From the NCBI RefSeq assembly GCF_003149045.1, contig NZ_QGDU01000002.1, positions 1 through 64,000 on the forward strand: a stretch of 64,000 nt of DNA, read 5' to 3'. The notes under the pieces were generated by a model. It did not search any database and had not been told where the DNA came from. It saw only the letters and a program-made list of their open reading frames with translations. Source of the DNA: Fibrobacter sp. UWR4. Lineage in GTDB: Bacteria > Fibrobacterota > Fibrobacteria > Fibrobacterales > Fibrobacteraceae. Shown here one piece after another: positions 27,794-49,980 of the stretch. Each line of letters begins with the position of its first letter. The first letter of the stretch is position 1. The position numbers and the translations under genes were made by a program.

Positions 27794-29065
27794 TTACTTG
27801 GCCTCGGCGACGCCTGCGGGAATATGTTCAGCACCCTCTGCACCCATGTTCTTGTCCATCTGGGTGCGGGTCAGTGCGTTTACCGCATCAGTCAGGCGGT
27901 CAATAGCCTTGATTAGTTCGTCCATCTTGGCATCGCTTGCACCACCTGCAACAGCGGCAGAAGCAGCGTTGGCGGCGGCAGCCTGAGCTTCAGCGGCAGG
28001 AGCAGCCTTAACAGGAACTTTGCCCAGCCAGATATCCGGCCAGCGGTCGTTACCGGAATGATAAGTAATGCGGGCAGCGGTTTCTACCGGTTCGCCAATC
28101 TTCCACATGTACAGTTCATAGTCGAACATATCGTGATCGTGGCCCTTGTCGGTTGCACCCCAAACAAGCCACTTGCCATCAGGAGAAAGACGAGGGAAAT
28201 ATTCATGACTGCGACGACCCGGCAAATCCATCAGGCGGACGTTCTTGGGAATACCGAAGAAGCCCACCTTTTCCACCTGCTTGCCATCCTTGGCAGAGAA
28301 CCACAGGATTTCGCTAGGAGCGGCAGTACCACCATTACCAGTGGGATTTACGCGATAGAGTTTGGAGCCATCAAAATTCCAGTCAATCTGGCAACCGTCA
28401 CCAGACTTAGTCCAGGTCTTCTTTTCCAGATCCCAGACGCCAGTTTCACGCATGGAACCGCGAAGCGTAATGGCCAAGTGCTTGCCATCCGGACTCATAT
28501 TCGGTTCCTGAAGAATCACATCCTTCTTATTGAAAGCGACTTCACCATCCAGAATCATAGATTCTGCCTTGCTGGAAAGGTCCATTGCGAAAACCTTGCC
28601 TGCACGGCTAAAGACAATAGTCTTACCATCGGGACGCCAGGTACCCCAGGTAGCGTTGTCTACAACCTTAGTCTGGTTGGAGCCATCGATATCCATGGTC
28701 CAGAGTTCCCACTTTTCCGGATAGTTCGCGTCATTTTCAGGAACCCAACCGCCCTTACTGCGGTTAAAGAGTACCTTGGCACCATCGGGGGAAATACGGG
28801 GGAACCAGTCCACATTATCGCTATTGGTCAATGCATGGGCGTTGGAGCCGTCGGCATTCATGAGCCAGATATCATGATGGGAATTTGCACGGCTGGTAGA
28901 CCAGGCAATCACACCTTCTACCTTTCCCTTCAGAGCATCAAGTGTTTTCTGTTCATCGGCTGTAGGATCTACAGCAGCACCCTTAGGAGCCCCCTGCTGG
29001 GCAAAAACAGAAGAACAGGCCAAAGCTGCAATCAAGGAAGCCCTTGCAAACTTCATCATTTTCAT
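27794..29065 (-). CDS. secreted TolB-like PD40 beta-propeller protein
   Basis: 423 residues; signal peptide MKMMKFARASLIAALACSSVFA. The mature part is a six-bladed TolB/PD40 type propeller: DIWLMNADGSNAHALTNSDN, FPRISPDGAKVLFNRSK, WELWTMDIDGSNQTKV, TWRPDGKTIVFSRAG, EPNMSPDGKHLAITLRG and FPRLSPDGKWLVWGATD. An alanine-rich linker (about 360-385) and a short helical tail (DAKMDELIKAIDRLTDAVNA) that may be a coiled coil end the protein. A periplasmic or surface scaffold role is likely. It is divergent from the GH5 cellulase, with 211 bp between the starts, suggesting but not proving a link to polysaccharide use. Confidence 0.85.
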   Translation of the reverse strand: MKMMKFARASLIAALACSSVFAQQGAPKGAAVDPTADEQKTLDALKGKVEGVIAWSTSRANSHHDIWLMNADGSNAHALTNSDNVDWFPRISPDGAKVLFNRSKGGWVPENDANYPEKWELWTMDIDGSNQTKVVDNATWGTWRPDGKTIVFSRAGKVFAMDLSSKAESMILDGEVAFNKKDVILQEPNMSPDGKHLAITLRGSMRETGVWDLEKKTWTKSGDGCQIDWNFDGSKLYRVNPTGNGGTAAPSEILWFSAKDGKQVEKVGFFGIPKNVRLMDLPGRRSHEYFPRLSPDGKWLVWGATDKGHDHDMFDYELYMWKIGEPVETAARITYHSGNDRWPDIWLGKVPVKAAPAAEAQAAAANAASAAVAGGASDAKMDELIKAIDRLTDAVNALTRTQMDKNMGAEGAEHIPAGVAEAK

Positions 29066-29276
29066 AAAAACCTCTAAAAAGGGAGGCGAACTGCCTTCCT
29101 ACGCACTCTAAAAGATAGTAACAAAGTACTAAAAATTAGGACAAATCGTACCATTTCAGTCAAAACTATGTTGATAAGGAACACACTTGTTTCTTTCTGT
29201 AAACAACAAAAACCTTACATTCCGAACACTTTACCTTATAACGATATAATTTAAAGAAAAAAATATGAGGATGTTT

Positions 29277-32022: not shown

Positions 32023-32051
32023 ATATGCTCCTTTTATACCGCTTTTAGGGC

Positions 32052-32091
32052 GGACCAAACACATTTCTCCAAAAATAATGCATTTTGGTCC
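32052..32091. promoter_or_regulatory. inverted repeat GGACCAAA-N24-TTTGGTCC upstream of GH8 gene
   Basis: Perfect 8-bp arms (32052-32059 and 32084-32091), 30-69 bp upstream of the GH8 start. It may be an operator or a 5'-UTR hairpin. Confidence 0.45.
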
Positions 32092-32169: not shown

Positions 32170-33705
32170 TCAAGGATTCTGCCACTTTAATTCCCACTTT
32201 TTTGCAGGAACACTACGATGGCAATGAATAAAAGGTCTATCGAACACCACAAAGTATTCGTCTTGATAGACTCGGTTCCAAGCCTGTTTTCTTGAGTCCA
32301 AATCCGCAATCAGCTTATTCCAACGCGCATAATAACGTGTCGGAAGAATCACTCGGCCGATTTGATTCTGCACAGCATATTCGACAAAGGTTTCTGGATT
32401 TTCAGCAAAGCCGAGATACTGTTCAAAGAAATCAGCTGTCTTTAAAATAAAGCGACCATCAATATACGTGGAATCGGAAGGATTCACGAAAGCCAGGTAA
32501 CCACCCGCACGATCGTCATTAAAAAGTCGCCCATCATGAGGATTGGCCTTCATCCATACCGCAGCGGCCACAGGAACTCGCTGATAAGAAACCATCGTAT
32601 GATCATAGACCTGAAGCGAGCGGATCCAGAGCCCGAATATAAAGGCAATGAGGATGATAAATGCTGAACGCAGGATGCGAGAAGCTGATTCCGGCTCGGA
32701 GGCCGGAATGACGTTTGCGAAGGAGGCTACCTTAGGAGTAGTCAAAAGAACCACAAGGAGAACTGGCAAAAATAGGACTAAATTTCTTTCAGCCATTAGG
32801 GAAAGAACTGCGGCTACCAGCAGCGTTATATGAAGGATCATACTGCGGGAGTTGTCCTGAAGAACTTGCTTGCGAAGGAACAGTACTCGCAGGATTTCGT
32901 GTCCGATGGAAATAACAGCGAGGAACACCATCCCGAAAGAAACCAAGGTGTTTTCGCCAGATTGCAACAACGTGACAGGAGAGCGGTTCTCCGCGATTTC
33001 GCTTGCGAAGATGGTTGCAGACTGAGAAAGTCCAAGCAGTCTATCCAGAAGTCCAAAGGGATACAGGAAAAGGGAAAGTCCTTCCCTATGGAGGAACGGC
33101 ATACAGAACATTGCCAGCGGGAATAAACCCCAGGGAAGCATTTTTCTGCGAGTATCCTCCGCCTTGAAAAATTCCACCAGAAATACACCTGCAGCCAATA
33201 TCGGGCCAAGAACGAATAAGCCCTGAGTCTTACACCAGAACCACTGAATCACAAGCAGAACTAAACAGGCCGCCCATTTTTTTAAAGCCGTTTTCGTCTG
33301 AAATATAAAAGGCAAAATATTCCAGTAGATTCCCAGGAATAGAAGGCTAAAGACTACCGGACGCATTTCCATCTGATAGCGGAACAGGAACAGCAATACG
33401 ATTCCGACGCAAGCGCCCAAAAAAGAAACTTTCCCCTCCCGATTCAAGAACGGTTTCATAAAGAGGGCAAAAACGATTCCCCACAAGATTGCCTTAAAAA
33501 ATACAAGCGCCTGTGCGCCCCCTATTCCATAAACAAATGCAACAACTTGCTGGAAATAATAATGCACATTGACAACAGGTTCACGCACAGGAGTCCATGT
33601 GGTCACCCATTCACGAGCGCAGGCCAAATGCCACCATATGTCCGTATCCGTCAGGGGAAATACGGCAAAGGCCGCTGCCACGACGAACAGCAAAATCAAG
33701 AGCAT
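32170..33705 (-). CDS. polytopic membrane protein with GT-C-like features
   Basis: 511 residues from the ATG at 33705; a TTG at 33747 would overlap the upstream gene. About ten hydrophobic helices. The first loop carries PLTDTDIWWHLACAREWV, an acidic-plus-WWH motif like the catalytic loop of GT-C type glycosyltransferases, which use lipid-linked sugars. The soluble C-terminal domain (DGRLFNDDRAGGYLAFVNPS, IDGRFILKTADFFEQYLG) resembles the tail seen in many such membrane proteins. A repeat-encoded segment containing VIPASEPES lies in a loop near residue 345. It is the last gene of the ten-gene operon, 25 bp after the fourth TIGR02171 gene, and is the only multi-spanning membrane protein in it. 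Confidence 0.72.
   Translation of the reverse strand: MLLILLFVVAAAFAVFPLTDTDIWWHLACAREWVTTWTPVREPVVNVHYYFQQVVAFVYGIGGAQALVFFKAILWGIVFALFMKPFLNREGKVSFLGACVGIVLLFLFRYQMEMRPVVFSLLFLGIYWNILPFIFQTKTALKKWAACLVLLVIQWFWCKTQGLFVLGPILAAGVFLVEFFKAEDTRRKMLPWGLFPLAMFCMPFLHREGLSLFLYPFGLLDRLLGLSQSATIFASEIAENRSPVTLLQSGENTLVSFGMVFLAVISIGHEILRVLFLRKQVLQDNSRSMILHITLLVAAVLSLMAERNLVLFLPVLLVVLLTTPKVASFANVIPASEPESASRILRSAFIILIAFIFGLWIRSLQVYDHTMVSYQRVPVAAAVWMKANPHDGRLFNDDRAGGYLAFVNPSDSTYIDGRFILKTADFFEQYLGFAENPETFVEYAVQNQIGRVILPTRYYARWNKLIADLDSRKQAWNRVYQDEYFVVFDRPFIHCHRSVPAKKWELKWQNP
32673..32713 (-). repeat. mobile intergenic repeat inserted in frame in a coding region
   Basis: ATTCCGGC (32688-32695) and GCCGGAAT (32702-32709) form a hairpin bracketed by GGATGCGAG and GAATGACG. 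In the minus-strand gene it encodes VIPASEPES and flanking residues, so a repeat element appears to have been absorbed in frame into the membrane-protein gene. Confidence 0.7.
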
Positions 33706-33730
33706 TTTTCCATGCAATCGTTCCACAGAC

Positions 33731-36388
33731 TTACTCAAGAGTTGCAATCAGGGAATCCAGACGAGTGGAGAATCGCTTGGCTCCACCGGCGCAAAGATGA
33801 TCATAGTAGGACGCCATCGAAGATGTATAATCATGATCACCCATCTTATTTTCATCGAACAGAATGAAATTCTTGGACTGGTATTCCTTAATGCGTTCAA
33901 CCATTTTTGCAGCAAGGCTACGGCGCATTCCATGACGGCCAAAAGCACCTGTATTCTTATAGGCTGGAGACTGCGGGAAAATTGCACCAATCACGATTAC
34001 ATCCTTCTTTGCAGCTATTTCCACAAGTTCCTGCAGAGCAAGGAAACTGTCTTCCAACATCAGGGAATCCGTAGAAGTCGTCGTATCTGTAGCAATAGGC
34101 GGATTATCCTCCCCCCAATCAGAACATACTGCCGAAATAAATCCGTTTTCGCTCATATAGGTTTTCGGGCCGTTGTCTACACCAGGAGCATTAGAGGTCA
34201 GTTCGTAAAGTCCTTTGGGATATCCGCCCTGCCAGTAGTCATGATTTTTATCATAGACAAAACCAGGAAAAATCTTGTAGGTTCCCTTGAAGAAATTATA
34301 CACATCCACATCCGATTTCCACCAGAAATCAAGATCCAAAGAAACAACAAGATACTTCAACTTTTTGAAATGAGGCAGAATATAATTCCGTACAAGATCT
34401 CTCGAAGTAAAAATGGAATTAGGAGTTTGAGCCAAATTTGCAACAACGGTAGGAGTATTCATCAGCTTGGGACGAATACCGTTGAACGGTCTCGAAGATC
34501 CCACAACCACAACGTCAGCAGTATCCTTCAATTTCCATAACAGTTCCATTTTGTAACGCCAGAATACATCTTCCTGCAAGAAGTTATCGCTCACGTACAA
34601 GCCGGCACTATCCACACTCAGAGTCTCATCAAGCTCTACATTCTTGAGATTTTCATCCACCCATAAGCAGGGATGGAATAAATCCGTACCCGCCACTAGC
34701 TCCGTAAAGGAACTATCAGACAAGTCCACCAGAACAATCCTTTCGTGATTTCCAGAAGTTCCTGTAAGAGTAGCCACAACAAAACCTGTTTTTCCCACCC
34801 ATTCCGTATGGTCAAAGGCATAATTTTCAGGAGCGGAAACCATCTGAATCAACCTACCCGTACTATCCGCAATAAGCAGCTGCTCATGGACACCATATTT
34901 ATGTCCGACAAACTCAGCCCCTTTTCCATTGTTGCTACCAAAATCAAGGAACAACGTACGTTTGGTCCCATCCTGGGAAAGGGAGGCATTACAAGCCTGT
35001 TCCTGATTATACCACAGGGTATCAAGAGCTTGAGATTCAAAGACCGTTCCATTTTCGCCTTGAGCAATTCGGGCACGAAGTTTCCTAGCACCAGTCACCG
35101 CAAGCCTTTGATCCTGACTTATCCCTCCATGATAGGCCCCGTCAAAAAGCTTTTCGGGAGTTCCAAAAACACCTTTTGCAAATGAAACCTGCCAGGTACT
35201 GCGAGAAAAGAAATCTCCATCGTCAGCATTATTGCCACTATCGGTAACATAGACTAGCACGGTGTCGCCTTCCGGAGAAATTCTCCATCGGGGGATAGAA
35301 GCATTGTCCACCTTCAGCAAAACAGGAAAGCTATTTTCAGACAGCTTACGAGCATATACATTTGATTTCCCAGTGATACCTTCCGAGCCCGTAGAGAAAG
35401 CAACCCACTGTCCATCAGGGGAAATATCTGGATGGAACATTTCCAGCGAATCCGTAATATCTACAAGACGAGGCCTTCCATTGTTAAAATCAACAAAGGC
35501 AAGATTTCCATTCAAATTGTTTCGGAATGCAAGTTTTATCCGATAGGATTTCAATTTTCTGAAAACATCCTGAGAGGTAGCCTGTAAAGATACGGTTCCG
35601 TCAACAGTTGTTCCCTGATTGGTTAGCCATTGTGCCCCTGGAATTTTTCCATAGGCTAGACGAAAACCTACGTAATAAATACGGGTGGATGAGGAAACCG
35701 TATAGATATCTCCTCGATTATACGAATTCACATTAAACTGATCAGAACTATAATCACCCCCCTTCAGAACATGTTCATCAAGGGAGCCTCCGTTAACAGC
35801 ACCTACAAAATCAGTAATGGTCGTATCCTTCAAACGTCCAAGCCAGTCATTTACCCATTCTTTCACATGAACAGAATTTTCAATTTCATTAAAGGCATAT
35901 ACCCACTCCGCCTCCGTAGGGATGCGGAAGCCCTCCACCTCGCTATTAAATTTCAACCCCACAAGATTAATGCAGCTTCCCTTATTATCTCGCTGAACCT
36001 TGGAATAAGAATAAACCGTATCCATTTTTTCAGCCTTGCTTCGGGCATTGGCATAAAGGACTGCGTCGTAATAGGTAATATATGTTACGGCGCCACTGGC
36101 ATCGCACATATGATCGACAGGCATATCCTGATACTTGGAAAATTCATCACAGGAAATTTCATCACTGCTGATATAGAAATCATAATCCAAGACCACATTC
36201 ATCTGTGGTGCATCCATCGTCTTAGCGTTTTCCATATTCGTCCCAAGAATCACAGGATTCTTAGGAGCCTTCAGATGGACAAATCCCTCCAGGTCTTTTT
36301 CCTTACCAGCTGCAGACGATGCGGAAGAATCCGTATCACTACACGCTGCATACATCAGCAGGAAAAAGGCCAGAAGAAACTTCATCAT
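33731..36388 (-). CDS. TIGR02171 family lipoprotein, paralogue A (fourth of four)
   Basis: 885 residues; signal MMKFLLAFFLLMYAAC, anchored at Cys16. The order of parts follows the other three: an FGE/SUMF1-like domain (about 35-255, with FRIPTEAEWVYAF and VLKGGDYSSDQFN), a TolB/PD40-like beta-propeller (about 290-580, with HPDISPDGQWVAFSTGSEG and LAVTGARKLRARI), and an SGNH-like C-terminal domain (about 625-885, with VVVGSSRPFNGI, VVSLDLDFWWKSD and a closing SYYDHLCAGGAKRFS). About 30 residues between EAEW and EWVNDWLG are missing relative to the other paralogues, including the VCxK...CDMAGN loop. The FGE cysteines are absent. It follows paralogue B by a 2-bp gap and precedes the membrane-protein gene. 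Confidence 0.88.
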   Translation of the reverse strand: MMKFLLAFFLLMYAACSDTDSSASSAAGKEKDLEGFVHLKAPKNPVILGTNMENAKTMDAPQMNVVLDYDFYISSDEISCDEFSKYQDMPVDHMCDASGAVTYITYYDAVLYANARSKAEKMDTVYSYSKVQRDNKGSCINLVGLKFNSEVEGFRIPTEAEWVYAFNEIENSVHVKEWVNDWLGRLKDTTITDFVGAVNGGSLDEHVLKGGDYSSDQFNVNSYNRGDIYTVSSSTRIYYVGFRLAYGKIPGAQWLTNQGTTVDGTVSLQATSQDVFRKLKSYRIKLAFRNNLNGNLAFVDFNNGRPRLVDITDSLEMFHPDISPDGQWVAFSTGSEGITGKSNVYARKLSENSFPVLLKVDNASIPRWRISPEGDTVLVYVTDSGNNADDGDFFSRSTWQVSFAKGVFGTPEKLFDGAYHGGISQDQRLAVTGARKLRARIAQGENGTVFESQALDTLWYNQEQACNASLSQDGTKRTLFLDFGSNNGKGAEFVGHKYGVHEQLLIADSTGRLIQMVSAPENYAFDHTEWVGKTGFVVATLTGTSGNHERIVLVDLSDSSFTELVAGTDLFHPCLWVDENLKNVELDETLSVDSAGLYVSDNFLQEDVFWRYKMELLWKLKDTADVVVVGSSRPFNGIRPKLMNTPTVVANLAQTPNSIFTSRDLVRNYILPHFKKLKYLVVSLDLDFWWKSDVDVYNFFKGTYKIFPGFVYDKNHDYWQGGYPKGLYELTSNAPGVDNGPKTYMSENGFISAVCSDWGEDNPPIATDTTTSTDSLMLEDSFLALQELVEIAAKKDVIVIGAIFPQSPAYKNTGAFGRHGMRRSLAAKMVERIKEYQSKNFILFDENKMGDHDYTSSMASYYDHLCAGGAKRFSTRLDSLIATLE

Positions 36389-36390
36389 GA

Positions 36391-39162
36391 TTACTCATCC
36401 AAAACTTTCATCAACAAGGTATCAAGGCGTCCAGCCACCTTCACCGCTCCCTTCAAGCCCAAATGATCTTCGTTAGAGAAGTCTTCGTATTCGTAGTCGT
36501 TAACGCCATCCTTATATTCATCAAAAATAAGGAAGTTATCATACTTTTCCTGCAGGGACTTCATATCATTCTGAATTTCCTTGGCATCATCCATGGTCAA
36601 GCCATAACGTCCCCATACTCCCTTCTTCACATAATAAGGAGACTGGGGGAAGACAGCGCCAATAACAAGAATACCCTTCGCCTTTGCCGAGTCTAAAATT
36701 CCGACCAGTTTTTCACGATTAAATGCATAGGCATCAGGATACTTGGAATACCATTTTACATCCCAGGATACTTCCGGATTTTCATCCACCCAACCCTCAG
36801 ATTCAGAATGGTACACACCATTGTTGTAACCAAAGGTATAAGACTCTTCGTCATCCGGAGTCATGGCGCTACGAGTCAAATTCAACATGCTCTTGGGCAC
36901 CCCATCCTTCCAGAAAGAATGATTTTCATCATAACGATAACCAGGAATATTCCCAAACCATTCCTTCCAATTATCATCCTTCACAAACCAGCGGTCATAA
37001 TCCAAAGTGATGACAACAGCCTTCAACTTGGGCATCAGAGGAATGATATAGTTATTCACGAAGAAATTCGTTGCAGTAAGATCTTCTGCGGAATAGGCAA
37101 GATTAATGGTAAAATGAGATGTTACCGCAGTAGGATCTAAGCCCGCAAAGGAACGAGACGAACCAATGACTGCAACTTCTGTAATCTCACGATATTGCCA
37201 GAAATACTCCATCTTGATTTTCATGATTCGAGTAGTAATATCCGAGGTCGCTGTCATATAAACGCCAGCACTGTCCAGATTCAGGAATTTTTCCTCTTCC
37301 GGAAGATTGACGTTCAAGACGCGAAGACACGGATCCCACAGTTCGTCTCCCTTCACCAAGTCCGTTACGGAACTATCCTGAAGATCGATGAGCACCAGCT
37401 TATTATGGCTACCGTTAAAATCATAAACGGAGGCAACTGCAAGATTTTTACCGTTGACCCATTCCGTATGGTCAAAAGACATATTGTTGGGAGCAGCAAC
37501 ACTCTGAATCAGATTGCCAGCACTGTCTGCTATAAACATACGTTCATGAACACCGTATTCCTTACCGACGAATTCACGACCCGGACCATCCTTCTTTGCA
37601 AAGTCCAGGAACAGGGTACGCTTGCTGCCATCTTGAGATAGAGAGACATTACAAGCCTGAGCACTATCAAACCACACGGTATCTACGGGGGATGATTCTC
37701 TTTCGAAATGAGCCCTCAGGAGACGGGCACCAGTAACAGCAAGGCGACCATCAGGAGTTACGCCCCCATGGTAATTTCCGTCGAACAACTTTTTAGGAGT
37801 TCCAAACTGTCCATTGGAGAAGGGCACTTGCCAAGTACTTGTTTCCGTAAAAATGGAATTTTCCGTATTGATATCAGCGGATGTCACATAAACAATTACG
37901 GTATCCCCAGCGTCCGTCACGGAGAAACGGGGAATTGCAGCAGATTCCACATCCAGCTTTACCAGGTTGGTACCAGCCAAATTGAGGCGACGCACATACA
38001 GTTCGGATTTGCCAGGAAGCCCTTCCCCACCTGTACAGAAGGCAACCCACTCCCCGTCAGGGGAAATATCCGGATGCCTTACCTTAAGGGTGGAATCCTT
38101 GATTTCCTTTACAGAGAAAGAACTTTCATTGAAGTTCATGTAAACCAGGTTGTTTGTCAGCCGGTTCACAAAAGCAAGCTTTGCACGAAGGGTACCCAGC
38201 TTATTCTTGAGGGTAGAAGACTTTACCAGCGGTTTCAGGAAAGCGGAAGAAGTAGAGCCATCGGCAGCCATCCACACAGGCTTTTCAATTTTACCGAAGG
38301 CAATACGACCGCCTACATAATTTGCCTTGCTTTTCGAAATGATGGTATAAGTATCCAGACGGGAATGAAGTGTGGTTCGAGCCTCACTATGCTTAAAGCT
38401 ACCGCCCTTTAAAACACGTTCACCAAGGGATCCTCCATCAGGAGCGCCTACAAAATTCGTAACGGTCGTATCCTTGAAATAGCCGAGCCAATCACTCACC
38501 CATTCCGCAAGATTTCCAGCCATATCGCAAAGGCCCAAGCCATTTCTAGCTTTAGAGCAGACTTCATGAGCATTGTCCCCGGAATTGGTCTGGTTCCAGC
38601 CATCGCTCACATTCCAGCCATGAGATGCAGCAAAGATCCATTCCGCTTCCGTTGGCAAACGATATCCTTCTACATCAGGATTGAACTGGAAATTTTCAAA
38701 TCCATTGACATGGTGGACACTATCATAATCTACGTAGGTGTAGGTATAGACCGTATCATAACCTTCAAGTTTGGAACGGTTATTCACATACAAGACCATG
38801 TCACCAAAAGTCGTATTGGCAATAGGAAGGTTTTCAGAACCAGGGGCAGGTTCCCCGCCCATGACTTTGGCATATTCCGCCTGAGTGACTTCGTGTTCCC
38901 CAATAGAGAAGTCATAATCAAACTTCACCTTCATTGCAGGAGATTCTTTCTTGTTAGCATTTGCATTATTGGTGCCAACATAGGTGAAGTGCCCTTTTGC
39001 GTGAATTCGAATCAATCCCTCATGAGTGGAATCTTTACCATACTCAACCTCGGTATCATCGTATTCCGTCTGACACACGGGATTCGCATCATGATGCGAA
39101 CAAGACGCAACCAGGGCTATTAGCCCTAATGTGCCCATGAGATTCGTAAATTTTCCAGCCAC
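36391..39162 (-). CDS. TIGR02171 family lipoprotein, paralogue B (third of four)
   Basis: 923 residues; signal MAGKFTNLMGTLGLIALVAS then Cys21. FGE/SUMF1-like domain about 50-300: FSIGEHEVTQAEYAKVMGG, YRLPTEAEWIFAASHGW, LCDMAGNLAEWVSDWLG, VLKGGSFKHSEARTTLHSR; the catalytic cysteines of true formylglycine-generating enzymes are lacking. Propeller about 340-620: HPDISPDGEWVAFCTGGEG, AAIPRFSVTDAGDTVIVYV, LAVTGARLLRAHF. SGNH-like domain about 660-915: AVIGSSRSFAGLD, VVITLDYDRWFVKD, VIGAVFPQSPYYVKKGVWGR, SNEDHLGLKGAVKVAG. Its single-base overlap with paralogue C (TAATG) indicates coupled translation. Family function is unknown. Confidence 0.88.
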   Translation of the reverse strand: MAGKFTNLMGTLGLIALVASCSHHDANPVCQTEYDDTEVEYGKDSTHEGLIRIHAKGHFTYVGTNNANANKKESPAMKVKFDYDFSIGEHEVTQAEYAKVMGGEPAPGSENLPIANTTFGDMVLYVNNRSKLEGYDTVYTYTYVDYDSVHHVNGFENFQFNPDVEGYRLPTEAEWIFAASHGWNVSDGWNQTNSGDNAHEVCSKARNGLGLCDMAGNLAEWVSDWLGYFKDTTVTNFVGAPDGGSLGERVLKGGSFKHSEARTTLHSRLDTYTIISKSKANYVGGRIAFGKIEKPVWMAADGSTSSAFLKPLVKSSTLKNKLGTLRAKLAFVNRLTNNLVYMNFNESSFSVKEIKDSTLKVRHPDISPDGEWVAFCTGGEGLPGKSELYVRRLNLAGTNLVKLDVESAAIPRFSVTDAGDTVIVYVTSADINTENSIFTETSTWQVPFSNGQFGTPKKLFDGNYHGGVTPDGRLAVTGARLLRAHFERESSPVDTVWFDSAQACNVSLSQDGSKRTLFLDFAKKDGPGREFVGKEYGVHERMFIADSAGNLIQSVAAPNNMSFDHTEWVNGKNLAVASVYDFNGSHNKLVLIDLQDSSVTDLVKGDELWDPCLRVLNVNLPEEEKFLNLDSAGVYMTATSDITTRIMKIKMEYFWQYREITEVAVIGSSRSFAGLDPTAVTSHFTINLAYSAEDLTATNFFVNNYIIPLMPKLKAVVITLDYDRWFVKDDNWKEWFGNIPGYRYDENHSFWKDGVPKSMLNLTRSAMTPDDEESYTFGYNNGVYHSESEGWVDENPEVSWDVKWYSKYPDAYAFNREKLVGILDSAKAKGILVIGAVFPQSPYYVKKGVWGRYGLTMDDAKEIQNDMKSLQEKYDNFLIFDEYKDGVNDYEYEDFSNEDHLGLKGAVKVAGRLDTLLMKVLDE

Positions 39163-41945: not shown

Positions 41946-44710
41946 TTGCTATCCCTCCGTTTTTCTAACCCCAGAAGAATCGAGTTCAGCCTTTCCGTAA
42001 TTTGCGGAATGCCTTCGGCACAAAGGTGATCGAAGTCCACGGCCATCTCGTTCCCATAATCGTGATTACCCATCTTATTTTCATCCATCAGGACAAAATT
42101 CGTATAAGTTTTCGAAAAACCATCTATTTTTTCAATCAGACTCTTCGCCACACTGCGACGAAGACCGTATCGGCCAAAGGCTCCTGACTTCGCATAAGCA
42201 GGACTTTGCGGGAAAATCACACCCACGACAGAGATGTTCCGTTCTTCGCATTTCTTAATGATATCTTCCAGGACTTCCAGGGAATTTTTCAGATATCCCC
42301 CGTCATCCATGTAAGTGCTATCGATTTCAATTTCAGGAACAGTCCCCCAGGATCCACAGGCAGAAGGAGTATGGCGGCCTCGGTCATACGTGTACAGGAT
42401 TGCATCTTCCGTTCCAAGGGCCTTTTCCGTTGCCTGTAACAGACCTGGAGGTACGCCGTCTTTCCAATAGTCATGATGTTCATCATAGACATAACCCGGA
42501 TAGCGTTTCACATCCTTATAGAAGAAATTATCGCCACCATCGCCATCGATTTTCCACCAGAAATCAATGTCCAGGGAAATCACCACATGTTTTAGATTTT
42601 TCAGATGGTTGAGGATGTACTTGTCCAGGAAATCCCTGGTTGCATAGATGGAATTCGGAGTATGCGCAAAATTGATTGCAAAGAATTCATTGCTTAAAAG
42701 GTCCGGACTTAGGGAATACAACGGACGGGAAGATCCAAGAATAGCCACATTTGCAGAATCTGCATAACGCCATAACAATTCCATCTTATAGCGCATAATC
42801 ACGGATGCCCAGCTATCATTTTCCTTCAGGTATACGCCAGCACTATCCATATCCAGGCCTGAATCCTGAAAATCATCGACACCATCCACCCACATGGCAG
42901 GATGCCACAACTCCTCCCCTCTTGCCAAAGCCAGGACAGAATCTGTAGACATGTCTACCAAGGCAATCTTTTCATGAACACCATTATAGTTGGTCAAGGA
43001 CACAATCGCATTATTTCCAAAAGTCCACTCGCTATGATCAAAAGCATAATCATCGGGAGCAGATACATATTGAATCAGTTTGCCGGTGCTGTCCATCACC
43101 TGGATTCGTTCATGAACGCCATAACCCTCGATGTTGTTTTCCTTATCCGTCTTGCGGCCAAAATCCAGGAACAGCGTGCGCTTGCTATCATCCTTTGAAA
43201 GACTTACATTGCAAGCCTGTTCGCCATTATACCAGACGGAATCCACCACACCTTCGTCAGACTCCGTACGAGAGCGTAGCAGTCGAGACCCAGTTACGGC
43301 CAAACGGTCATCACGAGAAACACCTCCATGGAAGGCTCCATCGAAAAGCTTTTGAGGTTTCCCGAATTTTCCATTGGAGAACGGGACCTGCCAAGTGCTA
43401 CGTCCCATGAACAAATTCTTGTCGGAATTATCCCCCGCGTTGGTCGCATAGACAATCACCGTATCGCCACCCGAAGTAACCCTCCAGCGGGGGATAGCAG
43501 CTCTTTCTACATTCAGCTTTACCAAATCAGAACTAATCGGGCTGAGAGTACGGACATATATTTCGGATTTTCCATCTACACTTTCGATACCCGTGCAGAA
43601 GGCAACCCACTTTCCATCAGGAGAAATGTCCGGATGGAAAACAGATACATCATCTTCAATTTCAAAGACTTTAGAACCTAAGGAATAATCAATGAATTCC
43701 AAATTTCCGGTAATATGGTTACGGAACGCAACCTTGACCTGCATCGTACCAAAGCGTTTCTTCATTTCAGTAGAACTGACCAAGGAAACCGTATTGGACG
43801 AAGAACCTGAGCCTCCATTCATCCAGGCCGGATCAGGAATCGCACCATAAGCAAGACGGAACCCCACATAGTCCGCATGAGTTGCAGAAGTCACTACATA
43901 GTCATCCCCACGGCGATAGGCATTTGCATATTCCTTACTATGCTTGAAACTACCGCCTTTCAAAACTCTTTGACCCAAGCCATCTGCCTGAGGAGAGCCC
44001 ATAAAATTCGCAACCGTGGTATCCGAGAATTTTCCCAGCCAGTCGTATACGAATTCCTTCACGTTTCCTTCCATGTCGCAGAAGTGCACAGAATCCGAAA
44101 CAAAATGACACACAGAGTGGGGACGGTAATCGGAATTTTCCGAATTCCAGCTACTATCCGGTTTCCAGCGAATACGAGCAGCTGCCATCCATTCCGCTTC
44201 AGTGGGTAAACGGAAAGCATCTACAGTGTTACGCAAGGTAAGTCCCGTAAGACCACTACAATGTCCTTCCCCATCAATGGTTACTGACTGGTAGGAGTAA
44301 GCCGTATCAAAACCATCCGCAATGCTTTTAGCATTTGCAAAAAGGATAATGTCATAATAGGAGACATTTGTGGCAGGAAGGTCATCTTCATCACAGGCGA
44401 CCTTGGTAATCATGCCTTCGGGAAGATCAGCCTTCCCCATAATTTTATTGAATTCACCGCAAGTTACCTCGCTCTGTCCAAGAGAAAAATCATAGTCAAA
44501 CATCACCCTCATTTGGGGACGTTCATTTTCCTTGGCCGTAGAATCCTTCGTACCGACAACAACGGTTTTGCCGGTTGCTTTTAGCAGAATGTATCCCGGG
44601 ATTTCGGAGGTACGAGCAGAAACCACGCCTGCCCTGGAGGAAGACGAATCATCAGAGCAGCTACTGAGCAAAGCTGCCAACAACGCGACAAACAGCGCAA
44701 CGCACTTCAT
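41942..44710 (-). CDS. TIGR02171 family lipoprotein, paralogue D (first of four)
   Basis: 922 residues; signal MKCVALFVALLAALLSSC, anchored at Cys18, then a Ser/Asp-rich start. FGE/SUMF1-like domain about 35-300: DYDFSLGQSEVTCGEFNKIM, FRLPTEAEWMAAARIRW, HFCDMEGNVKEFVYDWLG, VLKGGSFKHSKEYANAYRRG. It has extra cysteines (CGEF, KVACDEDD, GHCSG) but not the active FGE pair. Propeller about 340-620: FHPDISPDGKWVAFCTGIES, AAIPRWRVTSGGDTVIVYAT, LAVTGSRLLRSRTES. SGNH-like domain about 655-915: AILGSSRPLYSLSPD, VVISLDIDFWWKID, VIFPQSPAYAKSGAFGR, VDFDHLCAEGIPQITER. It follows the transglutaminase-like gene by 19 bp and is first of the array. Genome-level family function is unknown. Confidence 0.88.
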   Translation of the reverse strand: MKCVALFVALLAALLSSCSDDSSSSRAGVVSARTSEIPGYILLKATGKTVVVGTKDSTAKENERPQMRVMFDYDFSLGQSEVTCGEFNKIMGKADLPEGMITKVACDEDDLPATNVSYYDIILFANAKSIADGFDTAYSYQSVTIDGEGHCSGLTGLTLRNTVDAFRLPTEAEWMAAARIRWKPDSSWNSENSDYRPHSVCHFVSDSVHFCDMEGNVKEFVYDWLGKFSDTTVANFMGSPQADGLGQRVLKGGSFKHSKEYANAYRRGDDYVVTSATHADYVGFRLAYGAIPDPAWMNGGSGSSSNTVSLVSSTEMKKRFGTMQVKVAFRNHITGNLEFIDYSLGSKVFEIEDDVSVFHPDISPDGKWVAFCTGIESVDGKSEIYVRTLSPISSDLVKLNVERAAIPRWRVTSGGDTVIVYATNAGDNSDKNLFMGRSTWQVPFSNGKFGKPQKLFDGAFHGGVSRDDRLAVTGSRLLRSRTESDEGVVDSVWYNGEQACNVSLSKDDSKRTLFLDFGRKTDKENNIEGYGVHERIQVMDSTGKLIQYVSAPDDYAFDHSEWTFGNNAIVSLTNYNGVHEKIALVDMSTDSVLALARGEELWHPAMWVDGVDDFQDSGLDMDSAGVYLKENDSWASVIMRYKMELLWRYADSANVAILGSSRPLYSLSPDLLSNEFFAINFAHTPNSIYATRDFLDKYILNHLKNLKHVVISLDIDFWWKIDGDGGDNFFYKDVKRYPGYVYDEHHDYWKDGVPPGLLQATEKALGTEDAILYTYDRGRHTPSACGSWGTVPEIEIDSTYMDDGGYLKNSLEVLEDIIKKCEERNISVVGVIFPQSPAYAKSGAFGRYGLRRSVAKSLIEKIDGFSKTYTNFVLMDENKMGNHDYGNEMAVDFDHLCAEGIPQITERLNSILLGLEKRRDSK

Positions 44711-44729
44711 CTGCTCAAAAAATAGAAAA

Positions 44730-45455
44730 TTAGCGTTCTTTAGCTATATTCTGGTTAACGGAAATCCCTGGATATTCAGGAAAAAACTCTTCTGCCAGGC
44801 GGTACCATTTAAGGGCTCTGGGAGCATCATCTTTCAAGTAAAGATTTCCCACATCGAAAGTGGCCAATCCCACCAACTGCCGAGCTAAAAGAGGTTTGAA
44901 TTCAAGCCCTGTCCAGGGACCTGCCTTATACTTTTCACGGTACTCCTCATCGGTATAGGCATACCCCCTACGATTCGGTTCCAAATTGACAGAAGTTTGT
45001 CCCTGAATTCCATACCGCAAGAAAACATGTCCCGGAAGAAGGATCGGCTGCAAGTCAATTTGCCGATCTTCGGCCACCATCATGGCAAGCCAGGCAAGAC
45101 CGACGCAACCCGATTTCTTATTTTGCAAAACCTGAAGCGGGAATACCACCTCCTGAGAGGATGAAGCATTCTCCGCGCCCGCAAATTGAATATTCCAATA
45201 GCTCCAGAGAAGACTCTTTAATGACTGCAAAGTATCCCCGGTTACAGACAAAGTAGAATCATAGAATCGAAGTCCATCATTCCACTCCGGCAGGGAATCC
45301 ACGCAATCTATTGACTTTCCCTCCATGGAACAGGCCATCTCCAGATAACTCAAGTCACCCCCACGACCGCCCCACAGAAGAACACCTCCTGCCATACCCA
45401 GCAGGAGGAATACAGCCACCACAACGTAGTTCACAACTGTATTAGACTTTTTCAT
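44730..45455 (-). CDS. membrane-anchored transglutaminase-like protein
   Basis: 241 residues. One N-terminal membrane anchor (VVNYVVVAVFLLLGMAGGVL, about 8-27) and an extracytoplasmic part. Residues about 105-165 have the papain-like transglutaminase arrangement: Cys117 in KKSGCVGLAWLAMMVAED, His143 in LLPGHVFLRYGI and Asn161 in VNLEPNRRGYAYTD, similar to SirB1-type proteins. The end (GNLYLKDDAPRALKWYRLAE, then EFFPEYPGISVNQNIA) looks like one TPR-like helix pair. All three triad positions are present, so peptidase or transferase activity is possible. It sits 8 bp downstream of the SGNH lipoprotein gene and 19 bp upstream of the TIGR02171 array. Confidence 0.75.
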   Translation of the reverse strand: MKKSNTVVNYVVVAVFLLLGMAGGVLLWGGRGGDLSYLEMACSMEGKSIDCVDSLPEWNDGLRFYDSTLSVTGDTLQSLKSLLWSYWNIQFAGAENASSSQEVVFPLQVLQNKKSGCVGLAWLAMMVAEDRQIDLQPILLPGHVFLRYGIQGQTSVNLEPNRRGYAYTDEEYREKYKAGPWTGLEFKPLLARQLVGLATFDVGNLYLKDDAPRALKWYRLAEEFFPEYPGISVNQNIAKER

Positions 45456-45463
45456 TTATTCCA

Positions 45464-47482
45464 TTAACGAAGTGCATCCCATTCCATGGGAGATTGCCAG
45501 AGGTCTCTAGCCGTCATCATGTAAATGACCAGTCTCTTACTCTGCATATCCTTCTTCATCTTCATCATGCGGCTACGGACACCAGGACCGCCGCCCCAAC
45601 TGGTAAGGACCTGTACATCCAAACCTGTTGCATAAGCCAGCAAGGAACCCGGGCCACCGCTCTTCTGGTCCACACTTTCAAAGACGCCAGTAAAGGAATC
45701 GCCCATCAGGAGAATCGGAGAATTCTTCCCGCCCTTGTAGGTTTCCGTGCCCTTGTAAACCTTCATCACATTCAGATTATCCGCAGGATACTTGGACTTT
45801 TCCGCATCCGGCAAATGAGCTACCAGGTCACCTTCACGGAGGGTCTGCGTTTCCTGCAAGTTCAAGCTACCAGGTTGAGCGCCAGATTCCGCATACCAGC
45901 TGTACTGAGTTACACGACCTGCCAGAAGTTCCATGGCAGCAAGTTCACCAGGCAAAGCCCAATGGGTATCGTAACGCTGGAAACTGTAATGAGGCGGTTC
46001 ATCCCCAGCCTTTGCAGCCATAAGCGCAGGATAAATATCCAGCACGTCGATGCCGGCTTCAAGAAGTTCCTGGGTAAAGGCGCGACCTTCAAGGTTGACA
46101 CACAGGTCGGCAGCGGTACCCGGCACCAGCTTCTCGCCGTAGATTTCTTCCTTCACGGGAACAGGAACCACCAGCAGCTGGATTCCCAGCGAATCCAGAT
46201 AGTTCTTTAATTCAATCATTCGCGGTAGCGGGTTATGAAGGCTATCCTGACCGCTAATCTTGTCCGCCAGCAGGTAGTTTGCGTTACGACGGAACCAGAG
46301 GAAACCGCCCTCCACCTTGTTACCATTTACATCCACTTCAGCCCAGGCGTTCTGCTCCTTGGGAAGTTTCGCCATCTGTTCCGCCAGGGACTTGCGGAAA
46401 GCCGCAGTAGCTTCGTTGGCAGGACACGTTCCCTTTATTGCATTTAAGGTTTCCAAGCGGAAAGTAGAACTGGTATCCAGGTGACGATCTACGGGAATCA
46501 CTTCACCATGAGCCATCAGGGAATCCGCCACCTGCTTTGCACGAATCACCTCGTCCGTCATACGGAAAGCGGGAGCCTCAAAGCCAATCCACATGGGAGA
46601 TCCCATAGGATTGCCGCGCATCACCGCAAAAGGCCTTCCGTTTTCCCAGGGAGCGCCAGCCGTATGAGGTTCTAAGTCCGTATTCAAAGTGGGATACCAG
46701 TAGGAAGAGAGAGTCCGAGCCCAGTTCAAGGCATCGTCGGAATTCATTTCTCCCGTCAAGTAGTAGTTGAGAATTTCCGCAACTTCACCTATAGAAGTCA
46801 GCTTCAGCTTACCGTAGAAAACATTGCGTCCAGTCCACAGTGCAGGAAGAACTTCCACCCACCAGTCAATGGCATTAGAACCTGCATTGGCATTGGAGGA
46901 AGGAACGCCCCACAAGCGGGTCACACTCTGGAACGCCCTGAAAACCTCCGGTTCATTCCACTTCACCGCTTCCACACCATTCAGCAGAACGGACAGGGAA
47001 TCTGAACCCGTCTGGGAGTATAAAAGTTTTGCGAAGGGTTCCCAGGCGATAGGTTCCACCCCCGTCACCGCATTGGGTTCATAGCTAGAAAGGGAATCCA
47101 GCATAGGGAACGGATAATCAGCCAATTTTGCACCGGCCATAACGCCCTGGTAATTTTCAGGCTTTTCTTCCTTACCGGCCAGGCGAATAGGGTTGTTGAA
47201 ATAGGCTGCAAAATCAAGAGCCGCCAACGTGGGCTTATCCACCACACGGATCTGCTTGTCTCCGGAAACAATTTTCATTTCAAAAACGGTCACCGCCTTG
47301 GGAGCCACATAGCGAGGCATATTGGCTGGGGCAGAATTTCCCCCACGAATTTCCGCTACCGCAGGAGGAACAGAACCCGATTCTACATTACTATTTCCGG
47401 CACAGGCCATCAATCCAAAAGAAAGAGCCGATGCAGCAAGTGCCGCACCGACCTTCAAATAATTTGCTTTAAAATTTTTCAT
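45464..47482 (-). CDS. lipoprotein with AlgJ/AlgX-like SGNH domain
   Basis: 672 residues from the ATG at 47482 (a GTG two codons earlier is possible). Signal and lipobox end at GLMAC. The N-terminal 350 residues show no family I know. The C-terminal part (about 395-670) has the blocks of AlgJ/AlgX-type O-acetylation proteins: QLLVVPVPVKEEIYGEKLVP, the Asp-His motif RYDTHWALPGELAAME, and the nucleophile serine block PILLMGDSFTGVFESV; the final VIYMMTARDLWQ is also typical. Members of this group transfer or remove acetyl groups on extracellular polysaccharides. No MBOAT partner is in the window. It is followed by the transglutaminase-like gene after 8 bp, and it shares the SGNH theme with the four TIGR02171 proteins. 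Confidence 0.75.
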   Translation of the reverse strand: MKNFKANYLKVGAALAASALSFGLMACAGNSNVESGSVPPAVAEIRGGNSAPANMPRYVAPKAVTVFEMKIVSGDKQIRVVDKPTLAALDFAAYFNNPIRLAGKEEKPENYQGVMAGAKLADYPFPMLDSLSSYEPNAVTGVEPIAWEPFAKLLYSQTGSDSLSVLLNGVEAVKWNEPEVFRAFQSVTRLWGVPSSNANAGSNAIDWWVEVLPALWTGRNVFYGKLKLTSIGEVAEILNYYLTGEMNSDDALNWARTLSSYWYPTLNTDLEPHTAGAPWENGRPFAVMRGNPMGSPMWIGFEAPAFRMTDEVIRAKQVADSLMAHGEVIPVDRHLDTSSTFRLETLNAIKGTCPANEATAAFRKSLAEQMAKLPKEQNAWAEVDVNGNKVEGGFLWFRRNANYLLADKISGQDSLHNPLPRMIELKNYLDSLGIQLLVVPVPVKEEIYGEKLVPGTAADLCVNLEGRAFTQELLEAGIDVLDIYPALMAAKAGDEPPHYSFQRYDTHWALPGELAAMELLAGRVTQYSWYAESGAQPGSLNLQETQTLREGDLVAHLPDAEKSKYPADNLNVMKVYKGTETYKGGKNSPILLMGDSFTGVFESVDQKSGGPGSLLAYATGLDVQVLTSWGGGPGVRSRMMKMKKDMQSKRLVIYMMTARDLWQSPMEWDALR

Positions 47483-47499
47483 ATTCACTTAATGAATAT
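47481..47499. promoter_or_regulatory. perfect palindrome ATATTCA-N5-TGAATAT over a start site
   Basis: A 19-bp inverted repeat directly on the start region of the SGNH lipoprotein gene, in an AT-rich 36-bp gap. It could be an internal operator or just part of a weak internal promoter. Confidence 0.35.
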
Positions 47500-47518
47500 A
47501 TAAAATTTCAAGCAGTTC

Positions 47519-48340
47519 CTAATCTAAGCCACCTCGACAGTTTATTGCAGAACAGCCTATACCCCGTTCCCCGTCATTCGATTCGTAGCGGCAATAGAAA
47601 TTCATGGCCTCCACGGCATACATATCGCACCATTCACTACAAGCTCTTTCGGGATCAGCCTGAAACAATTCAGACTTTTTCGGATTTGCAAGACAGCTGG
47701 AAACGCATTGGTCGCGAGCCGCCAGCAAATCCTGACGGATCCAAGTTTCGCCATTTTCCACCTGATTAAAGGACGAACAATTATCAGGCCCACAGATTGC
47801 ATTTTTTACCACAATAGGAGCGTTCAAATCCAATGTTCCATCACAAGTTTCCACTGCAAAGAATTCCTGGATTTCATCATCCAGCAAGGGGGTATCCATA
47901 TTTTCGTTTGGAGCAGCCATCGTAATGACAATGGAATCCTGACCTACATGGTCTAAATTGTAGTAAGCATTATTTCTACTGTGCTCCCACGCCACCAGAT
48001 AGTAATGACAGTTCTCAGTTCCACCGCGCTGATCCAGGCGATGCTTTAAAACAGGCATCAGACGATGGAAAGTCCATTCATTCACGGGAATCAATGTCGG
48101 TTCACTAGGTAAGTTGCACATTGCCGAATATTGGGTATTCCTATACCCCAGCAAATAGATACTGGGATTAAAAAACACCATGGAATCCCCAGGAACTTCA
48201 TCCGCTACGGACGCAGATTCTTTATCATTTTTAAGCGAAACGGGATTCCTTTCCGAATTCGCCTGAGTCGAAGCATTTTCCGAACATGCCGCAAAAGCAA
48301 GAATTGCAGAACATGCCAACATCGTTTTTAGAAAGTCCAT
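47519..48340 (-). CDS. cysteine-rich lipoprotein of unknown function
   Basis: 273 residues from the ATG at 48340 with ribosome site GGGAGG; the open frame to 48391 lacks one. Signal MDFLKTMLACSAILAFAAC, lipobox AFAAC. The mature part has 11 or more cysteines, several in the C-terminal third (CGPDNCSSFN, DQCVSSCLANP, ERACSEWCDMYAVE, FYCRYES, GIGCSAINCRGG), implying disulfide bonds. GENMDTPLLDDE and similar stretches do not give a family assignment. It lies 16 bp after the next lipoprotein gene and 36 bp before the SGNH gene, and is part of the operon led by the TIGR02147 regulator. Function unknown. Confidence 0.7.
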   Translation of the reverse strand: MDFLKTMLACSAILAFAACSENASTQANSERNPVSLKNDKESASVADEVPGDSMVFFNPSIYLLGYRNTQYSAMCNLPSEPTLIPVNEWTFHRLMPVLKHRLDQRGGTENCHYYLVAWEHSRNNAYYNLDHVGQDSIVITMAAPNENMDTPLLDDEIQEFFAVETCDGTLDLNAPIVVKNAICGPDNCSSFNQVENGETWIRQDLLAARDQCVSSCLANPKKSELFQADPERACSEWCDMYAVEAMNFYCRYESNDGERGIGCSAINCRGGLD

Positions 48341-48356
48341 CCTAACCTCCCTTTGT

Positions 48357-49154
48357 TTACTTGATTTCATTTTCCCAGCGGTCACAGTCATTCTTAAACT
48401 GTTCCGCCTTTTGTGTAAGTTTTTCCTGAATACCTTCCGGCAAATAGTACTCGTACCAGCTGCGATTTACGGTTCCATTATCGCAGCCATTGCGATCCCA
48501 GTGACCATAGACACCACTAATACCAAGAATTTCCAACGAATCTGCATGAGGAACCACGTAAGATTCAAATTCATCCAGCAAGTCCTTGCACAAGTCCCAA
48601 CGATTTTCAGTTAGATGCGTTGCCATTGTTTTTACATACTCATTATCCATTTCGGGATCTTCGTAATATAGGATTGATTCCGACATCTCAATGAATTCCG
48701 CACCGGCAGTGAATTGCACTCCCACCCTATAACTCGTATCACTATCCACAACCTTTACAAGGCAGTGGGCAGACTCGTAGAACACATCTCCTTCCCCATC
48801 CAACAATTTACCCGGGCAAATGTTTTCGCCAAGGTCATTCTGGCAGGAATCAATCCTGGACGCGGTATCCAAAGGAGTATGCGGAACATCCATAGGATAA
48901 ACAGACGGAACGGTATCAGGAAACACAACAGAACTTGATGACACCTCAATGACAATATCATGTTCTGGAGGAAGTTGACCAGAAGGAGATTCGCTAGCAG
49001 ACGAATTTATGGCAATAGTATTCTTATCCTGATCCACATTGGCATTGGGATCCGTTACGGTTCCATTAGCCACACCATTGTCACTGCAGGCAATCAGCAA
49101 CGAACAACTAGCAATAAACCCACCCATAAAGATTTTAAGAATCTTGTCCATCAC
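48357..49154 (-). CDS. lipoprotein of unknown function
   Basis: 265 residues; signal MMDKILKIFMGGFIASCSLL then lipobox LLIAC. A Ser/Gln/Pro-rich linker (about 45-85) precedes a compact C-terminal domain (about 95-265) containing three cysteine positions (CQNDLGENICPGKLL, ESAHCLVKV) and a tryptophan-rich end (HLTENRWDLCKDLLDEFESY, NRSWYEYYLPEGIQ). No family recognised. The start codon overlaps the end of the TIGR02147 gene by 20 bp, so this lipoprotein is the direct partner of the regulator, like 11736-13277 for the other TIGR02147 gene. Confidence 0.72.
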   Translation of the reverse strand: MMDKILKIFMGGFIASCSLLIACSDNGVANGTVTDPNANVDQDKNTIAINSSASESPSGQLPPEHDIVIEVSSSSVVFPDTVPSVYPMDVPHTPLDTASRIDSCQNDLGENICPGKLLDGEGDVFYESAHCLVKVVDSDTSYRVGVQFTAGAEFIEMSESILYYEDPEMDNEYVKTMATHLTENRWDLCKDLLDEFESYVVPHADSLEILGISGVYGHWDRNGCDNGTVNRSWYEYYLPEGIQEKLTQKAEQFKNDCDRWENEIK

Positions 49155-49980
49155 TAACCTCCATCTTTTTTGCAGTCAGCGGAAAGAGCTGCAAATTCAA
49201 ACGATAAACTCGTTCAGCATCATCTGCCGCTGAAACCACATCCACAATTTGGCGTCTGCAATCCTCTAGAATTTTAAGCACACGACCATAAGTTTCGGCT
49301 CCTAACCCCATTGTAATCCCCGTAATACTACGTTCATTCACCCCAAAATCATCTACAGCACCTTCTGCAAACCTTGCCATGTCCCGATGCATGGTGCGGA
49401 TGGCCACAGGCAACGCCTCGGCAGAACCTTCCAAGGATCTTTCCGCCTGTTCATAAACGTCCTCGCCAGTCTTTTTTAAAAGACCCATGGCTACCAAGTC
49501 ATGAAGGACCTCCCGAACCTCCATGGCGGTAATTTCCTGATGGCACATCTTGGCAAGCGTCAGAGGCTTTGCCCCCGGCATGATGGAAGCCAGTTCACGA
49601 AGCACGGGATATTTCCAGGATTCGTAGAACTTGAAAGTTTCACCATCAAGGATGCGGACCTTGTGCGCCTTGGCGATTTCCCGCATTTCGGCATAAGCCT
49701 TCTTTTTATCTTCGTCCTGCTTGGCCTGCCCAAACAGAACTAAGGCGCGGAAATACACCAGCTCAAAACCAACGAGACCCATGGCAGCCGCAGTCCGTTC
49801 CACCCCAATCTGGCTCAGACCGCTTTTGCCTTCGCACACCAATTTCAAGTAAGTGGGCGAAGAAAATCCGGCCTGCTTCGCAAATTCCCGCCAAGAAAAT
49901 ACGGAAGTTCTCTTACGGTTGTCGTAAAAGTCCTGCATATAGGCGCGGTAATTGTCGTATTCTATCACGGATTTCATCAT
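49135..49980 (-). CDS. TIGR02147 family regulator heading the ten-gene operon
   Basis: 281 residues, Fibrobacter-type TIGR02147 family. The N-terminal IEYDNYRAYMQDFYDNRKR is the family start, followed by SWREFAKQAGFSSPTYLKLV (about 25-44), a helix-turn-helix-like segment. The central region is helical, and a winged-helix-like block EVREVLHDLVAMGLLKKTG lies near 155-173. The C-terminus (GAVDDFGVNERSITGITMGL, DCRRQIVDVVSAADDAER, VYRLNLQLFPLTAK) is the DUF4423-type domain. Expected role: DNA-binding control of the operon behind it. The two first codons are ATG ATG; a near-consensus promoter ends 7 bp before the first, giving a leaderless or almost leaderless mRNA. Confidence 0.88.
   Translation of the reverse strand: MMKSVIEYDNYRAYMQDFYDNRKRTSVFSWREFAKQAGFSSPTYLKLVCEGKSGLSQIGVERTAAAMGLVGFELVYFRALVLFGQAKQDEDKKKAYAEMREIAKAHKVRILDGETFKFYESWKYPVLRELASIMPGAKPLTLAKMCHQEITAMEVREVLHDLVAMGLLKKTGEDVYEQAERSLEGSAEALPVAIRTMHRDMARFAEGAVDDFGVNERSITGITMGLGAETYGRVLKILEDCRRQIVDVVSAADDAERVYRLNLQLFPLTAKKMEVSDGQDS

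Follow-up and report, generated by a model that had tools for sequence, protein, structure and literature searches.

A conserved Fibrobacter gene module with AlgX-like, transglutaminase-like, TIGR02171 and GT-C-like products, probably the outer parts of a split O-acylation system

We analysed a stretch of 64,000 nucleotides from Fibrobacter sp. UWR4 (contig NZ_QGDU01000002.1, positions 1 to 64,000; hereafter the window), which belongs to a 3.6 Mb Fibrobacter genome in 93 contigs, and concentrated on ten minus-strand open reading frames, g1 to g10, present at 32170-49980. A sequence-only reading of this DNA had described them as one operon headed by a TIGR02147 regulator and built around four TIGR02171 lipoproteins. 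Its gene content, strands, coordinates and junctions were all reproduced from the open reading frames, and its family calls (TIGR02147, AlgJ/AlgX-like SGNH, transglutaminase-like, four TIGR02171 and a GT-C-like g10) hold. Gene content and order, co-inheritance, motifs, the g10 fold and the folds of TIGR02171 domains one and two were computed directly. The genes, together with an outlying member of the ancestral operon described below, are:

49135..49980, minus strand: g1, TIGR02147-family DNA-binding regulator (DUF4423; TIGR02147 281 bits, cut-off 50)
48357..49154, minus strand: g2, lipoprotein overlapping g1, of the TIGR02147-linked type (no family match)
47519..48391, minus strand: g3, small lipoprotein, likely start 48340 (no family match)
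45464..47488, minus strand: g4, predicted AlgX/AlgJ-like SGNH O-acyltransferase lipoprotein (ALGX PF16822, E 2e-19)
44730..45455, minus strand: g5, membrane-anchored transglutaminase-like protein (Transglut_core2 PF13369, E 3e-10)
41942..44710, minus strand: g6, TIGR02171 lipoprotein, copy 1 (1154 bits)
39162..41945, minus strand: g7, TIGR02171 lipoprotein, copy 2 (1084 bits)
36391..39162, minus strand: g8, TIGR02171 lipoprotein, copy 3 (1053 bits)
33731..36388, minus strand: g9, TIGR02171 lipoprotein, copy 4 (1015 bits, in two pieces)
32170..33747, minus strand: g10, polytopic GT-C-fold glycosyltransferase-like protein (predicted structure and Foldseek)
27794..29065, minus strand: TolB-like (PD40) secreted protein, outlying ancestral-operon member (homologues in distant operons)

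From g1 onwards the junctions are a 20-base-pair (bp) overlap, 16 bp, 36 bp, 8 bp (g4/g5), 19 bp, a 4-bp overlap, a 1-bp overlap, 2 bp and 25 bp (g9/g10), where the distances of 16, 36 and 25 bp assume methionine starts for g3 at 48340, g4 at 47482 and g10 at 33705. Promoter-like sites (28 against 28.5 in shuffled sequences) and terminator-like sites (20 against 19.1) are at shuffle level, and the top-scoring minus-strand promoter match lies at 50015-49987, just upstream of g1. We regard the gene run as more than chance because its order is kept in related species. The neighbourhood of g4 was annotated in ten genomes of the genus and then in further close relatives, and of the 19 loci that are not cut by a contig or locus end, 18 keep the order g4, g5, TIGR02171 (one to six copies), g10, the exception, G003, being without g10. 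Two genomes carry an additional TIGR02171-like fragment between g4 and g5. In 80 genomes of the genus g5 tracks g4 (both in 61, neither in 17, g5 only in 2, g4 only in none). Genes g4-g10 are a coherent, conserved cell-envelope module of Fibrobacter and relatives. Plasmid carriage of g4 was rejected, as a search of plasmids gave no match. The main text of an F. succinogenes envelope proteome study names neither TIGR02171 nor AlgI, MBOAT or transglutaminase.

The synteny search suggested by the sequence-only reading thus gave a divided answer: the order of SGNH, transglutaminase, TIGR02171 and GT-C genes is kept, that of the TIGR02147 gene is not, and the proposed conserved, uncharacterised envelope module stands for g4-g10 and falls for g1-g3. 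Among the loci examined, orthologues of g1-g3 occur at this site only in one relative, G011 (88, 44 and 53% identity; its g4 is 95% identical and its locus ends before g10), and they are missing from the locus of another, G036, although the g4 proteins are 90% identical. On this ground we reject a ten-gene unit headed by the regulator and with the two small lipoproteins as members; the ten genes would rather be two units, g1-g3 and g4-g10. Because the genome of the window holds 26 TIGR02147 matches, and a lipoprotein gene follows 11 of the 14 TIGR02147 genes examined (spacing -53 to +9 bp), g1-g2 appears to be an ordinary pair of TIGR02147 and lipoprotein genes that lies upstream of the module. 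Genes g1-g3 look like an unrelated regulator-lipoprotein cassette inserted there, one of about 26 in the genome. The TIGR02147-linked lipoproteins (window 48357-49980 and twelve other loci) have a common motif after the lipid-bearing cysteine, AG followed by N-x-I/V-A, recognised by eye, and a TIGR02147 gene with an overlapping lipoprotein gene looks like a large uncharacterised family of such pairs. A literature search found no publication naming TIGR02171 or TIGR02147.

In g4 we found DTHW at residues 507-510 and GDSF at 596-599, with D507, H509 and S598 invariant in 20 homologues, and a profile match to AlgJ (4o8v, E 3e-12) as well as to AlgX; the layout is the same as the DxH plus GxS arrangement described for AlgJ (PMC4148444). 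The 400-residue N-terminal region of g4 matches no known structure. Residues C117, H143 and E159 of g5 form a putative triad and are invariant in 17 homologues. No Pfam family matched g10, whose AlphaFold model (predicted local distance difference test, pLDDT, 86) matched GT-C proteins in Foldseek (STT3/OST with E 3e-7, DPY19, ArnT and AftA) at about 11% identity and template modelling (TM) scores of 0.4-0.6. We are confident in the GT-C transmembrane fold predicted by this model. D36, an acidic residue in the first outer loop, is invariant in 29 homologues.

A survey of occurrence covering the Fibrobacterota showed that an MBOAT gene is genetically linked to g4 in several families or co-inherited with it in the genus and the phylum. 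In the 80 genus genomes both genes are present in 61, neither in 15, the MBOAT alone in 4 (which are 70-77% complete) and g4 alone in none. Outside the genus the genomes divide into 27 with both, 4 with the MBOAT only, 1 with g4 only and 39 with neither (p 3e-14) or, collapsed to genera, 18, 3, 1 and 21 (p 4e-8), p-values that ignore phylogeny. Presence of the two genes is mixed within three families and therefore implies repeated gain or loss. In the genus the MBOAT gene is mostly unlinked to g4; in three Fibrobacter species it lies no more than about 10 kb from the operon, and in the genome of the window it is on contig C1, together with the gene of a small secreted protein, the AlgJ-like gene being on contig C21. 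The MBOAT matches DltB (E 1e-26), and its C-terminus is FLYFQF in all 18 orthologues read to their end, which fits FXYXXF, the acyl-shuttle motif of PatA and DltX, whose tyrosine is auto-acetylated in PatA and which has been proposed to act in alginate and cellulose systems too (PMC12148441). The small secreted protein (128 amino acids, L081:8592-8978) has no family match, and in most of the examined loci its gene immediately precedes that of the MBOAT; by its position, an AlgF-like role is possible. A second, paralogous MBOAT with two GDSL-lipase proteins (L082:4682-9880, on contig C35 of the genome of the window) forms a putative separate acylation cluster.

In distant Fibrobacterota the dispersed parts stand together. 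A compact operon, whole or partial at nine loci of several other families, has the order small secreted protein, MBOAT, AlgJ-like SGNH protein, AlgX-like g4, g5, GT-C g10, TolB-like protein. Its AlgJ-like SGNH protein belongs to PF16822 (E 7e-30), and the AlgJ-like protein matches AlgJ/AlgX structures by sequence; at seven of the loci a homologue of the TolB-like protein of the window directly follows the GT-C or AlgX gene. An enzyme resembling UDP-4-keto-pentose/UDP-xylose (UDP, uridine diphosphate) synthases lies near the operon at one locus (NF008872, 319 bits, above cut-off), with relatives below cut-off at two others, and some distant genomes have polyprenyl-phosphate-sugar-transferase-like GT2 and sugar epimerase-like proteins nearby. 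TIGR02171 genes lie inside the operon within the Fibrobacteraceae (three genomes) and are mostly away from it in distant families, one genome with TIGR02171 near the operon being the exception. Because the AlgX-transglutaminase-GT-C core exists elsewhere without adjacent TIGR02171, the module is not built around these lipoproteins as had been supposed.

We propose, with a probability of about 0.7, that g4-g10 are the outer parts of a split AlgI/J/X-type MBOAT-SGNH system for O-acylation of an envelope glycan. The most likely task of the module is to place acetyl-type groups on a sugar chain of the cell surface, and the earlier guess of surface-polysaccharide modification is supported by the MBOAT, AlgJ-like and UDP-pentose synthase-like genes that lie close by in distant relatives and by co-inheritance with the MBOAT. 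The acyl donor, the glycan substrate, the order of transfer and the roles of g5 and TIGR02171 we infer as follows. The MBOAT on C1 would move an acyl group from acyl-coenzyme A onto the tyrosine of its C-terminal FLYFQF, and the AlgJ-like SGNH protein (C21) and g4 would accept it on their catalytic serine and pass it to the glycan. This glycan would probably be built with the help of g10, using a lipid-linked sugar. The transglutaminase-like g5 is a constant membrane-anchored partner, and the TIGR02171 proteins may act at the outer membrane in acyl transfer to, or binding of, specific targets.

The closest known system is AlgI-AlgJ-AlgF-AlgX of Pseudomonas aeruginosa, which likewise combines an MBOAT with two PF16822 SGNH proteins carrying DxH and GxS and acts by periplasmic acetyl transfer to the polymer (PMC4148444). 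The Fibrobacter system differs from it in that g4 is a lipoprotein with the long N-terminal region described above, in the added transglutaminase, GT-C, TolB-like and TIGR02171 partners, and in its dispersal over three loci in this Fibrobacter; the alginate polymerase and export proteins Alg8/44/K/E, and AlgF, were not recognised among neighbours in the loci read, which were not scanned individually for these families. The pairs PatA/PatB, DltBXD and WssH/WssI also join an MBOAT with C-terminal FXYXXF (PMC12148441) to an SGNH acceptor, whereas here there are two SGNH partners and a TIGR02171 array. The core is thus a relative of a known system, and the lineage-specific, expandable array is its unusual addition. 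This gives a testable function to TIGR02171, an orphan lipoprotein family rich in Fibrobacter, and to a conserved operon, and it suggests that major cellulose degraders of rumen and hindgut, which depend on their surface for attachment to plant fibre, carry an acylated surface glycan. The case further illustrates how the membrane part of an MBOAT-SGNH system and its outer part can be separated in the genome yet retained or lost jointly.

By score (1015-1154 bits, NCBIfam cut-off 544) g6-g9 are full members of TIGR02171, each with an FGE-sulfatase domain, and the lipobox cysteine C18 is invariant in 53 alignment rows, as are S661 and H895 (see below). The AlphaFold model of g6 (pLDDT 88) has three domains: an FGE-like domain closest in Foldseek to the C-type-lectin-fold variable protein TvpA of T. 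denticola (2y3c, E 5e-14), then a propeller like that of TolB (E 2e-11), and finally an alpha/beta domain at the C-terminus in which G659, S661, N680 and H895 are invariant and where the secondary structure of the model fits a serine after strand 1 and a histidine before the last helix. We infer that this last domain is a putative DltD-like SGNH domain. In a tree of 57 array copies the nearest species have positional orthologues in common (that of g7 in G036 and G011), and all four copies of G087 fall in one clade, a lineage-specific duplication; the array therefore expands and contracts. The fastest-changing copy is g9, which has 60% identity to G036 and is without part of the FGE-like domain (profile positions 172-209). 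The best reading of TIGR02171 is an accessory paralogue array duplicated inside the operon. That its members are new multi-domain acyltransferases anchored in the outer membrane that receive acyl groups from the MBOAT shuttle, with every paralogue targeting a different glycan via its lectin-like domain so that changes of the tandem array vary surface acylation, is a bolder idea that we hold to be doubtful. FGE activity was rejected (the catalytic cysteine pair is missing, no conserved cysteine follows the GGS motif, and positions 256-261 vary freely), as was a target of a diversity-generating retroelement: no RVT_1 match was found on the contig of the window, template repeats not having been searched for, and differences to the G036 orthologues are not clustered by domain. 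The top TIGR02171 score of the genome, 1185 bits, belongs to a solitary gene away from the operon (L083:8283-10994, on contig C13).

Several observations weigh against an O-acylation system of this kind. In the genome of the window neither the MBOAT gene nor the AlgJ-like gene is linked to the operon, beside which no polymerase or synthase was recognised, and the non-genus genomes include the four with the MBOAT and without g4 and the one with g4 and without the MBOAT. Genomes without the system tend towards small size, and losses therefore need not be independent. For TIGR02171, the DltD/DUF1574 match of the C-terminal domain is weak (2 of 38 members, E 5e-4), profile comparisons of this domain with g4 or a GDSL protein were negative, and the 50 matches that Foldseek listed for the full-length model, dominated by propeller and FGE hits, include no SGNH structure. 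TIGR02171 also occurs without g4 in some genomes (G060 and G069), and its role may therefore not depend on acylation.

The alternative that survives best, though we consider it unlikely, is protein glycosylation, with g10 acting like OST to transfer a lipid-linked sugar to proteins that are secreted or held by a lipid anchor (the nearby cellulases, for example, or TIGR02171), and the SGNH and MBOAT proteins only decorating the glycan. STT3/OST and DPY19 are indeed the best structural matches of g10, polyprenyl-phosphate-sugar enzymes occur near the ancestral operon, and GH5 and GH8 genes adjoin the module in many of the Fibrobacter loci examined; yet STT3, ArnT and AftA are one fold, so that such a match, at the low identity and TM scores given above, leaves the acceptor unfixed. 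The same neighbours recall the Arn pathway for aminoarabinose on lipid A (ArnA/ArnC/ArnT), as an ArnA-like UDP-pentose synthase, a polyprenyl-phosphate GT2 and a GT-C protein lie near some distant operons. Unlike in Arn, no formyltransferase domain was seen, g10 is no closer to ArnT than to STT3, and the sugar genes are not beside the operon in the window.

It is improbable that the TIGR02171 proteins play a structural part, as ring or scaffold lipoproteins comparable to GldK/GldJ/PorK of type IX secretion, unrelated to acylation and sharing the operon for expression. The FGE-like fold is common to GldK/PorK (E 6e-10 to 2e-4, PorK chains being among the matches), and TIGR02171 stands alone on C13 and in other families, but membership of GldK/PorK was rejected at a best score of 39 bits against the GldK cut-off of 350, two further domains are present, tandem arrays lie mostly inside the AlgX-transglutaminase operon in the Fibrobacteraceae loci examined, and Ser661 and His895 are invariant. 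A sensory module, in which the lectin-like domain would bind surface or plant glycans and signal via g1, is highly improbable: the sensing role suggested by the sequence-only reading found support only in the C-type-lectin fold (2y3c) of one domain; the regulator does start the gene run here, but g1 is at the site in one examined relative only, the partners of TIGR02147 genes are lipoproteins of their own, TIGR02171 showed no transmembrane part for signalling, and species without g1 suggest that the module works without it.

Between g10 and the TolB-like gene the window contains GH5-like and GH8-like genes (29265-32064, named by eye), an arrangement that recurs in many Fibrobacter genomes. The C-terminal tails of these two proteins resemble, by eye, type IX secretion sorting domains.

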